Below are positions 32,420 to 46,283 of a stretch of 48,217 nucleotides of DNA, piece by piece; positions within the stretch are counted from its first letter, which is position 1; each line of letters begins with the position of its first letter. The notes beneath the pieces were generated by a model. The model did no database searches. It was not told the DNA's origin and saw nothing but the letters and a program-made list of their open reading frames with translations. A program made the position numbers and the translations under genes. This stretch comes from Alphaproteobacteria bacterium. GTDB lineage: Bacteria > Pseudomonadota > Alphaproteobacteria > UBA9219 > RGZA01. The stretch is taken from NCBI GenBank assembly GCA_021732145.1, contig JAKFVN010000028.1, forward strand, positions 1 through 48,217, read 5' to 3'.

Positions 32420-33202
32420 TTAGATAACAAGTGGAATGGAAAAGATGCGCGTGAAAATTTCTTCATAGCCTCTTCCCCATACGGCCATCATGGTGCCGAG
32501 GCTTGCGGCCAGAATGGCAAGGCCGAATAAAATCTGTAATGGCGCAAGCACAAAGAAAATCTGCATCTGCGGTATCATCTTCACCATCAAGCCGCCCGTA
32601 AGCTGGAACACGATACCCAATATCATGAACGGCGCAACAATCCGCAGCGCAAGCGAAAAGCTGTCATTCACGCTTTGTGAAATAAAATGCGTCATATCGC
32701 CAATTGGAATGAATACGCCCGGCTTAAACACCGCATAGCTTTGCACCAGGGATTTCAGTGCCATGTCCAAAAGGCCGCTTTCAAACAGCAATACAATCCC
32801 AAGCATGCTTAGAAGGGTGCCCGTGACCGAGCCCTGGTTTTGAATGGTTGGGTTCAAGACCATTGCGTTTGATAAACCGATTTGCATGGCAATCAGCATG
32901 CCCGCAACTTCAAGCGTAGTAAGCAGCAAGCGCATGATGAAGCCGATGAAGATGCCCACGCCTGCTTCAATCAGAATATATTCGCAAACGCGCACCGCGT
33001 CTTCCGGCATGGCGGGAAGACGCGGTGCAAGCAGCGGCAGTAAAATAAAGCTGACCAGCAACGCCAGTTCCAATCGTACTCGCGCGGGCACAAAGCTTTC
33101 ACCAATGCCTGGCATAAGCATGAAAATGCAACCGATGCGGCAGAAAACAAGAAGAAATGCGAAGACGTTTCCGGTGATGAACTGCGCAAGATCAATCGAC
33201 AT
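32420..33202 (-). CDS. fliR: Flagellar export-gate protein FliR
   Basis: FliR is an integral membrane subunit of the FliPQR export gate. The 260-residue product has about six hydrophobic segments and the family features FVPARVRLELALLVSF, EAGVGIFIGFIMRLLLTTLEVAGMLIAMQIGLSNAMVLNP and LAPLQILFGLAILAAS. Length is typical. It starts 12 bases after the fliQ stop with AGGATATT upstream, in the order flgB-flgC-fliE-fliQ-fliR-flhB. Confidence 0.97.
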   Translation of the reverse strand: MSIDLAQFITGNVFAFLLVFCRIGCIFMLMPGIGESFVPARVRLELALLVSFILLPLLAPRLPAMPEDAVRVCEYILIEAGVGIFIGFIMRLLLTTLEVAGMLIAMQIGLSNAMVLNPTIQNQGSVTGTLLSMLGIVLLFESGLLDMALKSLVQSYAVFKPGVFIPIGDMTHFISQSVNDSFSLALRIVAPFMILGIVFQLTGGLMVKMIPQMQIFFVLAPLQILFGLAILAASLGTMMAVWGRGYEEIFTRIFSIPLVI

Positions 33203-41965: not shown

Positions 41966-42883
41966 TTAAATTTTTCTAAAGCACCACAAGAGAATAGCTT
42001 TTTGCACGTGCAAACGGTTCTCAGCTTCATCCCATACGGCCGATTGCGCGCCATCCATCACTGCATCCGTCACTTCTTCGCCGCGGTGGGCAGGCAGGCA
42101 ATGCATGAAAATGGCGGAGGATTTGGCGAGCGCCATCTGCGCCGTATCAATCTGGTAAGGCTGCAATAGCTTGCGGCGTTCATCGGCATTGGTGTCGTGC
42201 ATGGAAACCCAGGTATCGGTCAGCACGATATCGGCATTCTTTAATGCGGTTTGTAGATTATCCGAAGTGGTGATGTTGGCTTTGGCCTGTGCCTTCTTCA
42301 ATGTTTCCTTATCGGGCGCAAGGCTTGCGGGTGCTGCAATGCGAATGGAAAAATCGAAAATGCCTGCGGCATGCATCCAGCTGGTCAGCACATTATTGTT
42401 GCCGTCACCGCACCACGCGACTTCAAGGCCTTTAAGCTTCTTGAATTTTTCAAGCGCCGTCATCAAATCGGCCATTACCTGGCAGGGATGTGAGAAGTTT
42501 GTAAGGCCGTTGATTACCGGAATGCTGGCATGCGCCGCCATTTCGGTAAGGTTGCTTTGCTCAAAGGTGCGGATCATCAACCCTTGCACAAAGCGGCTTA
42601 ATACCCGCGCGGTATCGCCAAGGCTTTCGCCATGACCAAGCTGCATTTCTTTTCCGGACAATACAACGGTTTCGCCGCCCAGTTCCTTCATCGCTACTTC
42701 AAATGAAACGCGCGTGCGGGTCGATGGCTTTTCAAATATCATCGCCAAGGTTTTGCCGTGCAAATCCTTGCGCCAGCTGCGGTATTTCTTCAAACGCAAT
42801 GCCGTGTGCAGGATGATGTTCAATGTTTGCGTATCAAACGCATCCAGATCGATGAAGTGCCGGGGTTTGTAATGGGCGGACAT
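41966..42883 (-). CDS. argF: Ornithine carbamoyltransferase
   Basis: Converts ornithine and carbamoyl phosphate to citrulline in arginine synthesis. The 305-residue enzyme has the carbamoyl-phosphate loop S54-T-R-T-R58 (KPSTRTRVSFE) and the ornithine motif HCLP (261-264, FMHCLPAHRGEE). The second phosphate-binding segment FSHPCQVMADL is intact. Its ATG overlaps the argD stop by one base (TGATG). Confidence 0.97.
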   Translation of the reverse strand: MSAHYKPRHFIDLDAFDTQTLNIILHTALRLKKYRSWRKDLHGKTLAMIFEKPSTRTRVSFEVAMKELGGETVVLSGKEMQLGHGESLGDTARVLSRFVQGLMIRTFEQSNLTEMAAHASIPVINGLTNFSHPCQVMADLMTALEKFKKLKGLEVAWCGDGNNNVLTSWMHAAGIFDFSIRIAAPASLAPDKETLKKAQAKANITTSDNLQTALKNADIVLTDTWVSMHDTNADERRKLLQPYQIDTAQMALAKSSAIFMHCLPAHRGEEVTDAVMDGAQSAVWDEAENRLHVQKAILLWCFRKI

Positions 42884-44112
42884 CAGGCAGCATCCCCGGC
42901 TTTTATGGAATTTGCTTTGATATAATCGGCGACTGTCTTCTTGATAATTGCCATCGCTTCATCGACATGCTCTTCTTCAATGATAAGCGGCGGCAGGAAA
43001 CGCACCACTTGGTCAGACGCGCCAACGCACAGCAAGCCGTTTTCGCGCAGCTTTGCAACCAGCTTTAAATTATCATCGGCGTTCACGCAGCGTAACCCCT
43101 GCATCAAATTCTTGCCGCGGTGCTCATGGAACATGGGTGCTGCATTGGTTGAAAACAGTTTTGGAAAATCAGTAATCAGCGTATCGAATTGCTGCCACAG
43201 ATATGCACCAACGCGGTTAACCTGCTTCAATAATTTCTCATCCATTAAATCCAGCACGGCATTGCCAACTGCCATCGCCAGCGGATTGCCGCCATAGGTT
43301 GAACCATGCGTGCCGGGTTGCATGCCGCTTGCTGCCTTTGCGGTGGCAAGGCAAGCGCCAAGCGGGAAGCCGCCGCCAATGCCCTTGGCAACGCAAATCA
43401 CATCGGGTTCCACGCCCAGATGTTCAAATGCAAACAGCTTGCCCGTGCGGCCCATGCCGCATTGGATTTCATCAAAGAATAAAAGGAGTCCATGCTCATC
43501 GCAAAGTTTTCTTAAGCCTTGAATGAATTCTAGCGTAGCTGCGCGCATGCCGCCTTCACCTTGCACCACCTCAATTAAAATGGATGCGGTTTCGGGTGTA
43601 ATCGCTTTGCGCACGGCTTCCAAGTCATTCCACGGCACTTGATCGAACATGTCGATGAGCGGGCCAAAGCCGCCAACCATCTTTTCTGTTTTGGCTGCGG
43701 CGATGCTCGTCATGCTGCGGCCGTGGAAGCATCCCTGGAACGTGATGAAGCGGGTTTTTTCCGGCTGGCCAATATGCGTGAAGTATTTGCGGATGACCTT
43801 GATGCCGCATTCCCATGCTTCGCCGCCAGAGTTGTTAAAGAACACCGTATCCGCAAAACTTGCATCGCACAGACGTTGCGCAAGGCGTTCACCTTCCGGA
43901 ATACGGAAGATGTTGGAGACATGCCAAAGCTTCCTTGCCTGCTCATGCAATTTTTCAACAAGGTAGGGGTGCGCATGGCCAAATGCGTTTACGGCAATGC
44001 CCGCAGCGAAATCGAGATAGCGTTTGCCATCGCTGGCATAAAGGTAGGGCCCTTCGCCTTTTTCAAATGCCAAATTCGCCCGGTTATAAACAGGCATTAC
44101 AGGTGTAATCAT
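42883..44112 (-). CDS. argD: Acetylornithine aminotransferase
   Basis: Class III PLP aminotransferase that makes N-acetylornithine in arginine synthesis, and may act in lysine synthesis. The 409-residue protein has FDEIQCGMGRTGKLFAFEH with D215, the PLP lysine K243 in VAKGIGGGFPLGA, and the VVQGEGGMR block. ArgD is the natural partner of the overlapping argF. It starts 5 bases after an ABC permease stop, so the permease gene is in the same operon. It could in principle be another class III aminotransferase, but the argF overlap makes ArgD most likely. Confidence 0.94.
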   Translation of the reverse strand: MITPVMPVYNRANLAFEKGEGPYLYASDGKRYLDFAAGIAVNAFGHAHPYLVEKLHEQARKLWHVSNIFRIPEGERLAQRLCDASFADTVFFNNSGGEAWECGIKVIRKYFTHIGQPEKTRFITFQGCFHGRSMTSIAAAKTEKMVGGFGPLIDMFDQVPWNDLEAVRKAITPETASILIEVVQGEGGMRAATLEFIQGLRKLCDEHGLLLFFDEIQCGMGRTGKLFAFEHLGVEPDVICVAKGIGGGFPLGACLATAKAASGMQPGTHGSTYGGNPLAMAVGNAVLDLMDEKLLKQVNRVGAYLWQQFDTLITDFPKLFSTNAAPMFHEHRGKNLMQGLRCVNADDNLKLVAKLRENGLLCVGASDQVVRFLPPLIIEEEHVDEAMAIIKKTVADYIKANSIKAGDAA

Positions 44113-44117
44113 CTCAT

Positions 44118-44921
44118 CTAACTCTTAAGTTTATAGCCTTTTTTCAACATCACCAACGTTACTATCCATAGCACAATATTGATGCTTAGCATCACATATA
44201 AACCAACAGTCAGCGAGCCGTCAGTTACGCCCACAAAGCCATACCTAAAGCCATCAATCATATAAAAGAACGGATTGAGGTGGCAGATGAAGCGCCACAC
44301 CTCCGGCAATTGCCCGGCGGTATAGAACGTGCCGGAAAGGAAGGTTGCAGGCATGATAACGAAATTAGTGACGGTCGCCAGATGGTCGAACTTCATTGAC
44401 CAGATGCCGCCAATTAAACCTAACAGCGCCATCAGCATCGAACCCATAATGCCGTGATAGAGGATAAACCAGAAATCATGGATGGGAACCCCGGAAAACG
44501 GCGCAACCACCAGCATCGATGCCGCGCCAACCGCAAGGCCGCGGATTAATCCACCAAGCGTATAGCCAATGGCAAATTCGGTGGCGGTCAATGGCGGCAT
44601 CAGCACATCAACGATATTGCCTTGCACTTTTGAAATCACCATCGATGACGATGTATTGGCGAATGCGTTTTGCGCCATCGACATCATGATGAGGCCGGGC
44701 ATCAAAAAATCCATATACGGAATGCCGGCCGCCATTTTGCCGTTACCGCCCAATGCAATGCGGAACACTGCGTAAAATAAAATAGTGCTGATCACCGGCG
44801 CGATGATGGTTTGCAGGTAAACGACAAAGAAACGCTGCGTTTCTTTTTTCGTAAGCGTCGCAAGGCCAATCCAGTTAATGGTGCCGATATTGCGTGGTTG
44901 CAGTTGTTGTGCGGGGGTCAT
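44118..44921 (-). CDS. ABC-2 type transporter permease
   Basis: A 267-residue polytopic protein with six membrane helices (about 33-52, 66-82, 114-138, 150-172, 183-202, 235-258) and the ABC-2 family blocks FLMPGLIMMSMAQNAFANTSSSMV and PATFLSGTFYTAGQLPEVWRFICHLNPFFYMIDGFRYGF. It is the YadH/NodJ type, so it should export a lipid, polysaccharide or drug with a separate ATPase; no ATPase gene is nearby. It is 5 bases before argD. Its ribosome binding site (AAGGAAG) and start are part of a 10-bp hairpin at 44920-44953. Confidence 0.9.
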   Translation of the reverse strand: MTPAQQLQPRNIGTINWIGLATLTKKETQRFFVVYLQTIIAPVISTILFYAVFRIALGGNGKMAAGIPYMDFLMPGLIMMSMAQNAFANTSSSMVISKVQGNIVDVLMPPLTATEFAIGYTLGGLIRGLAVGAASMLVVAPFSGVPIHDFWFILYHGIMGSMLMALLGLIGGIWSMKFDHLATVTNFVIMPATFLSGTFYTAGQLPEVWRFICHLNPFFYMIDGFRYGFVGVTDGSLTVGLYVMLSINIVLWIVTLVMLKKGYKLKS

Positions 44922-44953
44922 TGCTTCCTTACCCTTAATGCCTAGGAAGCAAT
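44920..44953 (-). promoter_or_regulatory. Hairpin that covers the ribosome binding site and start codon of the ABC permease
   Basis: Arms ATTGCTTCCT and AGGAAGCAAT form a perfect 10-bp inverted repeat around a 14-base loop. In the minus-strand transcript the 3' arm contains AGGAAG, the ribosome binding site, and the first two bases of the AUG at 44921. It could control translation, or be the DNA operator of a repressor. Confidence 0.6.
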
Positions 44954-44987
44954 TAATTATAAATCGCCGTGCAGCGTTTACAAGTGT

Positions 44988-46283
44988 TTAGTCGTTCATG
45001 AAGTCTTTGTCGGTAATACCGCTGCGCAATTCCGGGGGCGGTGTCAGTAATGACTGGCTGGCATCCGGATAGCTTTCAAGGTATTTGCCCAAAACCCCAA
45101 CAATTTTGGGATCGTAAATGGCACCGTTATCTTCCCTTAAGATACGCATCGAATTGTCGATGGTCAGGCCCTGGCGGTGGGCACGGGGCGACACCAGCGC
45201 GACAAACGCGTTGGCAACGACAACCACACGGGTTGTTTCCAGAATGTTTTCGCCTTTGCGGCCTTCGGGCATGCCCGAACCATCATAGCGTTCCAACACC
45301 TGACGCATGGTCGGGATAACCGGAACCTGGAAGCTGATGAGCGATAAAATATCCGCAGATGTCAAAATGCTTTTGCGCACCAGACGTAATTCTTCGGCAT
45401 CAAGCGCAGAACTCTTGATAAGAATCTTGCGGGGCACCAGAACCTTCCCAAGGTTCATCAGTGAGCCGGCGATGCGGCATGTTTCAACGCTTGATTCATC
45501 AAGGCCCATTTCCAGCGCAAGCGCTTCAGCAACCATGCCCACGCGAAGGGAGTGGCCAGCAGCATAAGGGTCGCGCCTATCCACCACAGCCACCAGCGTA
45601 TCAATCAATTGGCGGAAGGTCTGGTCTTGGCGTTCACGTTCAACGATAACGTCGGTGATATCCTTTTGCGTGACCATAATCAGGTTATGCAAATCAGCCG
45701 TATCTGGCAGCGGTATATGATAGGTCTGCATGTAATGCGGGCCCGATGCTTCATCGCGGCGGTCAACCGTAATCACAGGCGCGCCGCTTTTATTCGCGCG
45801 CTTAATGCGGTCAATCAGCAGGCTTGCCTGGCGCGGCAAGAATACGCGGTCGACGGTTTTACCAACCAAATCTTCCTGATCCATTTTCACTTGCTTGCCG
45901 GCTTCGTTATTGGCAAACCAGAAATGACCCTCGCGGTCGGTGATGAACAGGCTGTTTGGAATGTTATCGGTAATCACGCGCAACAAATCCTCATGATAAC
46001 GCGCGCGGCGGTTCAATCCGGTTTCCTTCGTCATGTGCTGTAATTCGGAATGGAAATGCGCCATGTGATAAGCGGTAATGGAACCACAAATAACAAGCGC
46101 AAGAAAAATGCCCAGAACCATCAACAAGGTATCGGCGGTTCCGTTCACAAATGCAGGCTGGAATAATTGAAATGCTTCAAACGCGCCCAGCAACAGCAAG
46201 AGCGGGAACACAAGAAAGCCGAGCAGCTTTGCGAGCAGCGACAATTTCGGTTCGGCGATAGGCGTTTCAGGAGCGTGAGACAT
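44988..46283 (-). CDS. Membrane PAS and degenerate HD-GYP domain protein
   Basis: A 431-residue protein with two membrane helices (about 17-41 and 52-72), a PAS domain (about 98-215) and a C-terminal HD-GYP domain (about 225-415). HD-GYP enzymes hydrolyse cyclic di-GMP, but here the metal ligands are lost: the HD pair is M276-N277 (GSLMNLGK), the HHE region is MRQVLERYDG, and GYP is GMP (334-339 DGSGMP). GHSLRV is still present. It is likely non-catalytic and may sense or bind instead. It follows rodA after 121 bases and precedes the ABC permease by 66. Confidence 0.85.
   Translation of the reverse strand: MSHAPETPIAEPKLSLLAKLLGFLVFPLLLLLGAFEAFQLFQPAFVNGTADTLLMVLGIFLALVICGSITAYHMAHFHSELQHMTKETGLNRRARYHEDLLRVITDNIPNSLFITDREGHFWFANNEAGKQVKMDQEDLVGKTVDRVFLPRQASLLIDRIKRANKSGAPVITVDRRDEASGPHYMQTYHIPLPDTADLHNLIMVTQKDITDVIVERERQDQTFRQLIDTLVAVVDRRDPYAAGHSLRVGMVAEALALEMGLDESSVETCRIAGSLMNLGKVLVPRKILIKSSALDAEELRLVRKSILTSADILSLISFQVPVIPTMRQVLERYDGSGMPEGRKGENILETTRVVVVANAFVALVSPRAHRQGLTIDNSMRILREDNGAIYDPKIVGVLGKYLESYPDASQSLLTPPPELRSGITDKDFMND

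Follow-up and report, generated by a model that had tools for sequence, protein, structure and literature searches.

Does the inverted repeat at the start of an ABC transporter permease gene, directly ahead of argD and argF, fold in the mRNA so as to bury the ribosome binding site, and if so, what form of control might it exert? We addressed this question in a 48,217-nt stretch of DNA (the window) from an alphaproteobacterium with a genome of 2.09 Mb (G000), and by comparison with related genomes. The analyses indicated that the element is a real, lineage-specific and probably functional hairpin that sequesters the Shine-Dalgarno (SD) sequence at the predicted 5' end of the operon mRNA.

The repeat and its gene context

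The original prediction described a 10-bp repeat with a 14-nt loop at 44920-44953, and a repeat search confirmed it, with arms at 44920-44929 and 44944-44953 that were 100% complementary (Table 1). It had also been correctly noted that the 3' arm consists of the ribosome binding site and the first two bases (AU) of the permease start codon: on the - strand, the SD sequence AAGGA was at 44930-44926 and the permease ATG at 44921-44919. The order of elements on this strand was TTGTAA-N16-TATAAT-TAATTGCTTCCTAGGCATTAAGGGTAAGGAAGCAATG.

Table 1. Positions of the genes, promoter-like elements and repeat parts in the window.
Feature	Position	Strand	Remarks
argF, ornithine carbamoyltransferase	41966..42883	-	1-nt overlap with argD
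argD, acetylornithine transaminase	42883..44112	-	ATG at 44112
ABC-2 type transporter permease, YadH/PRK15066-like	44118..44921	-	ATG start, 267 residues; assigned by profile matches
3' arm AGGAAGCAAT	44920..44929	-	SD and AU of start codon; identical in 3/3 species
Loop AGGCATTAAGGGTA	44930..44943	-	Diverges among species in sequence and length (16/12/16 nt between core arms)
5' arm ATTGCTTCCT	44944..44953	-	Core GCTTCC (44950-44945) invariant within genus; outer three bases ATT/GTT/ATC vary
Predicted transcription start, G	44950	-	Inferred, 6 nt after the -10; sole purine where starts normally fall; unchanged in three species
-10 hexamer TATAAT (TATACT in G001)	44956..44961	-	Block CGATTTATA conserved in three species
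-35 hexamer TTGTAA, sigma70-type	44978..44983	-	CTTGTAAAC conserved in G000, G002 and G001
Upstream gene, PAS-HD domain, HD-GYP-like	44988..46283	-	Same strand as permease

The permease matched the profile PF01061 (E 4.6e-31), and its best NCBIfam model was NF011648 (210.7 bits, under the cut-off of 225). No ABC ATPase gene directly adjoined it. The permease stop at 44118 and the argD ATG left a gap of 5 nt, as had been reported, and the SD of argD was weak (AAGAG, 9 nt before the ATG), lying right at the permease stop. Based on this layout, it is plausible that the hairpin affects argD and argF as well, through translational coupling and polarity. No terminator was found between the upstream HD gene and the permease, and the HD gene is a likely source of read-through transcripts into the permease.

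The permease-argD neighbourhood (42883-44921 here) was conserved in several families of Alphaproteobacteria, with the order argF-permease-argD in many relatives versus permease-argD-argF here. The hairpin is thus much younger than the pair, which indicated that it is a genus-level addition. Skermanella (L010:2977-4577) had two tandem ABC-2 permease genes before argD, the second of them a distant paralogue, and another locus (L004) likewise contained a tandem permease pair.

Conservation of the leader within the genus

The host genome was compared with two further species of its genus, G002 and G001, whose permeases were 96% and about 75% identical, respectively, to that of G000. In both species the genes were ordered HD gene, permease, argD, argF, and the start of the orthologous gene was laid out as in G000. 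Within the intergenic region of 72 nt, G000 and G001 shared four runs of at least 6 nt (CTTGTAAAC, CGATTTATA, GCTTCCT and TAAGGAAGCAAT), which corresponded to the -35, the -10, the 5' arm and the 3' arm with the SD, and G002 agreed. This conservation of the leader in three species supported the proposal that a hairpin buries the SD ahead of permease-argD-argF. In background intergenic sequence, G000 and G001 were 57-65% identical and each region contained several exact runs of 6-9 nt, so that a conserved arm of 7 nt is not exceptional by itself.

Across the three species, 93% of the alignment cells in the stem were paired, compared to no more than 53% whenever the register was slid. Seven of the ten pairs never varied; the others comprised one change of A-U to G-U, one C.A in G001 and one A.A in G002. 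Compensatory changes, which had been suggested as a check of the hairpin in relatives, numbered zero among the three species, but as the 3' arm was invariant, covariation could not have appeared. The start codon in G001 was a TTG located 4 nt further on, indicating that the conserved feature is the pairing of the SD and not that of the start codon.

The combined promoter-hairpin pattern was searched for in 33 genomes of the order and matched three. These were exactly the genomes of the genus, each with one match, at the orthologous gene, and there were 0 control matches; the pattern was absent from the other 30 genomes. Leaders of orthologues from about 80 public genomes, and from another 27 loci, showed no counterpart of the hairpin by eye, and a search of a plasmid collection gave no match.

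Predicted transcripts and competing explanations

The promoter match comprised 10 of 12 positions with a 16-nt spacer, and was the best of three promoter-like sites in 5.5 kb. Such sites were fewer in the region than the shuffled mean, and thus the consensus match alone proves nothing. The conserved stem core begins with the predicted start, G44950, which lies 3 nt inside the 5' arm, giving a predicted leader of 29 nt. Two of the three 5'-arm bases upstream of G44950 varied between species and the core was invariant, a pattern that, judged from sequence, would be expected from selection on the stem of the native transcript itself. A transcript start inside the hairpin had been named as evidence against the original prediction; the predicted start does fall within the 5' arm, but a 7-bp stem remains.

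When the transcript was folded from successive start sites, a start at G44950 gave a stem of 7 bp (about -10 kcal/mol) that left the AUG free. The read-through transcript formed the full 10-bp stem (-12 to -13.6 kcal/mol), which also covered the AU of the start codon, and the outer 3 bp are predicted to form only in transcripts from the upstream gene. For starts from 44953 to 44950 the SD of G000 was at least 97% paired. With a start one base later, at C44949, the native stem had just -5.5 kcal/mol at 42 C and would not hold back translation. The SD was also inside the stem in G002 and G001, and in G003, from a sister genus with a similar predicted -10 position, it was mostly open (70% unpaired at 37 C).

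Expression was estimated from the hairpin energies, using the relation with translation that has been published for the MS2 coat gene (PMC9894550). The relative values for native versus read-through mRNA were 0.12 versus 0.005 in G000, 0.82 versus 0.10 in G002 and 0.71 versus 0.75 in G001, and they are indicative only, as E. coli/MS2 values were moved to an uncultured alphaproteobacterium. On this fit, read-through mRNA would be less translatable by ~20-fold in G000 and 6- to 9-fold in G002, with no difference in G001.

How often such a stem arises without function was assessed at two levels. The window contained 4 perfect inverted repeats of at least 10 bp with loops of 3-20 nt, and dinucleotide shuffles averaged 1.6 (range 0-4); a 10-bp repeat alone is therefore unremarkable and weak evidence. 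For start regions, the null was drawn from 448 kb of the G000 genome, in which 382 starts were called mechanically. No perfect stem of at least 4 bp covered the SD at 221 of these starts, and 158 had one of 4-7 bp (100, 45, 10 and 3 stems of 4, 5, 6 and 7 bp, respectively). The longer stems were one of 9 bp with no evident SD, that of the permease, and one of 13 bp. The latter, the sole stem longer than that of the permease, is followed by a T run and resembles the terminator of the previous gene, leaving the permease stem as the longest perfect non-terminator-like stem over an SD in the sample. Extrapolation of the histogram indicated that ~0.1 stems of 10 bp would be expected by chance among the 382 starts. 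The minimum free energy of the permease start region was not extreme (rank 33/382; z about -1.6).

These data bear on the possibility that the 5' arm complements the SD region by accident and has no regulatory role, being kept by common descent or as conserved promoter or initially transcribed bases. The excess of 10-bp repeats over the shuffles is small, the two arms show no covariation and the hairpin is absent outside the genus, all of which would be consistent with such an origin. Chance is still a serious rival, given the conserved runs of similar length (at least 6 nt) in neighbouring intergenic regions of G000 and G001 and the lack of covariation, and we assign it an appreciable though minor share of the probability. 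It accounts poorly for the rank of the stem among the 382 starts, for the 5' arm being a conserved block when the adjoining loop is not, and for the conserved core beginning exactly at the predicted +1.

Three regulatory devices had been offered for this layout, and none of them fared well. An RNA thermometer, in which warming would melt the stem and free the SD, is suggested by the presence of the SD and AUG within a short hairpin and by UUGCU in the 5' arm, which agrees letter for letter with the ROSE motif U(U/C)GCU (PMC3669281). ROSE elements, however, pair imperfectly and have leaders of two to four hairpins (PMC3669281), unlike the perfect Watson-Crick, heat-stable single hairpin here, and the permease is not a heat-shock gene, small or otherwise. 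In addition, part of UUGCU falls ahead of the predicted start, and in G001 the sequence is UCGCU, with the loss of one pair. The melting series led us to reject the thermometer: in the predicted transcript starting at 44950, the unpaired fraction of the SD rose from 0.01 at 10 C to just 0.03 at 60 C, so that the SD stayed at least 97% paired throughout. With no match to any Rfam family in the window either, this reading was not supported and is extremely improbable. A DNA operator, with a dimeric repressor on the inverted repeat at +1 blocking the permease promoter, would occupy a classic place, as the perfect repeat overlaps the predicted start. However, the spacing of the half-sites differs by 4 bp among the species (16/12/16 nt), which would turn them about 140 degrees round the helix, and they are unequal, the 3' one being simply the SD and start. 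Even with up to 3 mismatches allowed, the repeat had no second copy in G000, GCTTCC-N8-20-GGAAGC was otherwise rare in the three genomes (below its reversed control), and no further regulon site was evident in them. A repressor with a single target might act here, but the spacing change and the lack of regulon sites disfavoured the operator, and we judge it improbable. A leader in which a ligand, protein or sRNA (for instance, one responsive to arginine) controls permease-argD-argF expression by switching the hairpin between open and closed would fit an SD-covering hairpin that heads a unit with arginine biosynthesis genes. Against this, the predicted leader is short and the loop is conserved in neither sequence nor length, so that there is no visible aptamer or protein-binding loop; the Rfam result applies here as well, and the permease-argD pair greatly predates a hairpin that other genera lack. 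The protein-controlled leader was thus disfavoured too, and we consider control of this kind very improbable.

Candidate mechanism and known parallels

The explanation that we favor, with a probability of roughly 0.5, is that a 5'-terminal SD-sequestering hairpin damps permease translation and locks read-through mRNA. Transcription from the conserved sigma70-type promoter would start at about G44950, giving an mRNA that begins pppGCUUCC and whose first 7 bases would pair with AGGAAGC, burying the SD. Translation of this native transcript, with its 7 bp, would be damped yet possible. Read-through mRNA from the HD gene would add AUU, extending the stem to 10 bp and hiding the AU of the start codon, and would be translated far less. 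The hairpin would in this way set a low basal level of a membrane protein and favor mRNA from the gene's own promoter, and argD, whose start is so close to the permease stop, may follow the permease. The hairpin may also protect the 5' end from RppH/RNase E; 5' secondary structure is known to stabilize mRNA (PMC3997798).

If this explanation is correct, a compact leader of 29 nt would allow the transcription start to decide how much of the ribosome binding site (RBS) hairpin forms, and expression of the permease, perhaps with argD-argF, would be tied to promoter choice. Such control would be ordinary in kind and would leave the general picture of gene control unchanged. We speculate further that this is a graded lock in a chromosomal housekeeping operon, in which own-promoter mRNA is translatable, upstream mRNA is silenced, and the lock decays where a folded repeat with a T run has been inserted between the genes. 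In this extended form the proposal is rather unlikely.

Locks against read-through are found in the transposase mRNAs of the IS10/IS50 type, in which an inverted repeat spans the transcription start, the native mRNA is without part of the 5' arm and read-through hides the RBS; in the late genes of T4, RBS hairpins occur only in early transcripts. As in these systems, the inverted repeat here spans the predicted start site. Unlike the IS10/IS50 type, the gene is a chromosomal transporter gene whose native mRNA would keep 7 of the 10 bp, making the lock a graded one, and one of the three species is without the outer pairs. The transposase mRNA of ISPpu9 similarly has its RBS buried by secondary structure in the 5'-UTR, the weakening of which increased reporter activity 26-fold (PMC8450116), but its leader is long and has antisense sRNAs, none of which are known for the permease. 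In the MS2 coat gene, a single local hairpin also contains the SD and start codon, and expression is set by its free energy (data of de Smit and van Duin, PMC9894550). The energies computed here range from -7.5 to -12 kcal/mol, where the MS2 curve is steep. The present hairpin differs in its predicted position at the extreme 5' end, with the start site cutting into the 5' arm.

In G001, the HD gene was separated from the permease promoter by an inserted cloverleaf-like repeat about 90-108 nt long (contig 169, 11906-11994; L084:1318-1425). It was strongly folded (z -5.1) and ended in TTTTT. Six related copies were present in the G001 genome, and it had no match in G000, G002, G003 or G004. The repeat resembles a small element of the repetitive extragenic or MITE-like type and may terminate transcription. 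G001 was the sole species of the three without a difference between native and read-through mRNA, and the one with the repeat. From this one case we hypothesize that, if the repeat terminates transcription, a read-through lock would be needless there.

Elsewhere in the window, a 14-bp perfect inverted repeat with a 13-nt loop was observed at 32992-33032, within a predicted ORF (32420-33202, - strand).
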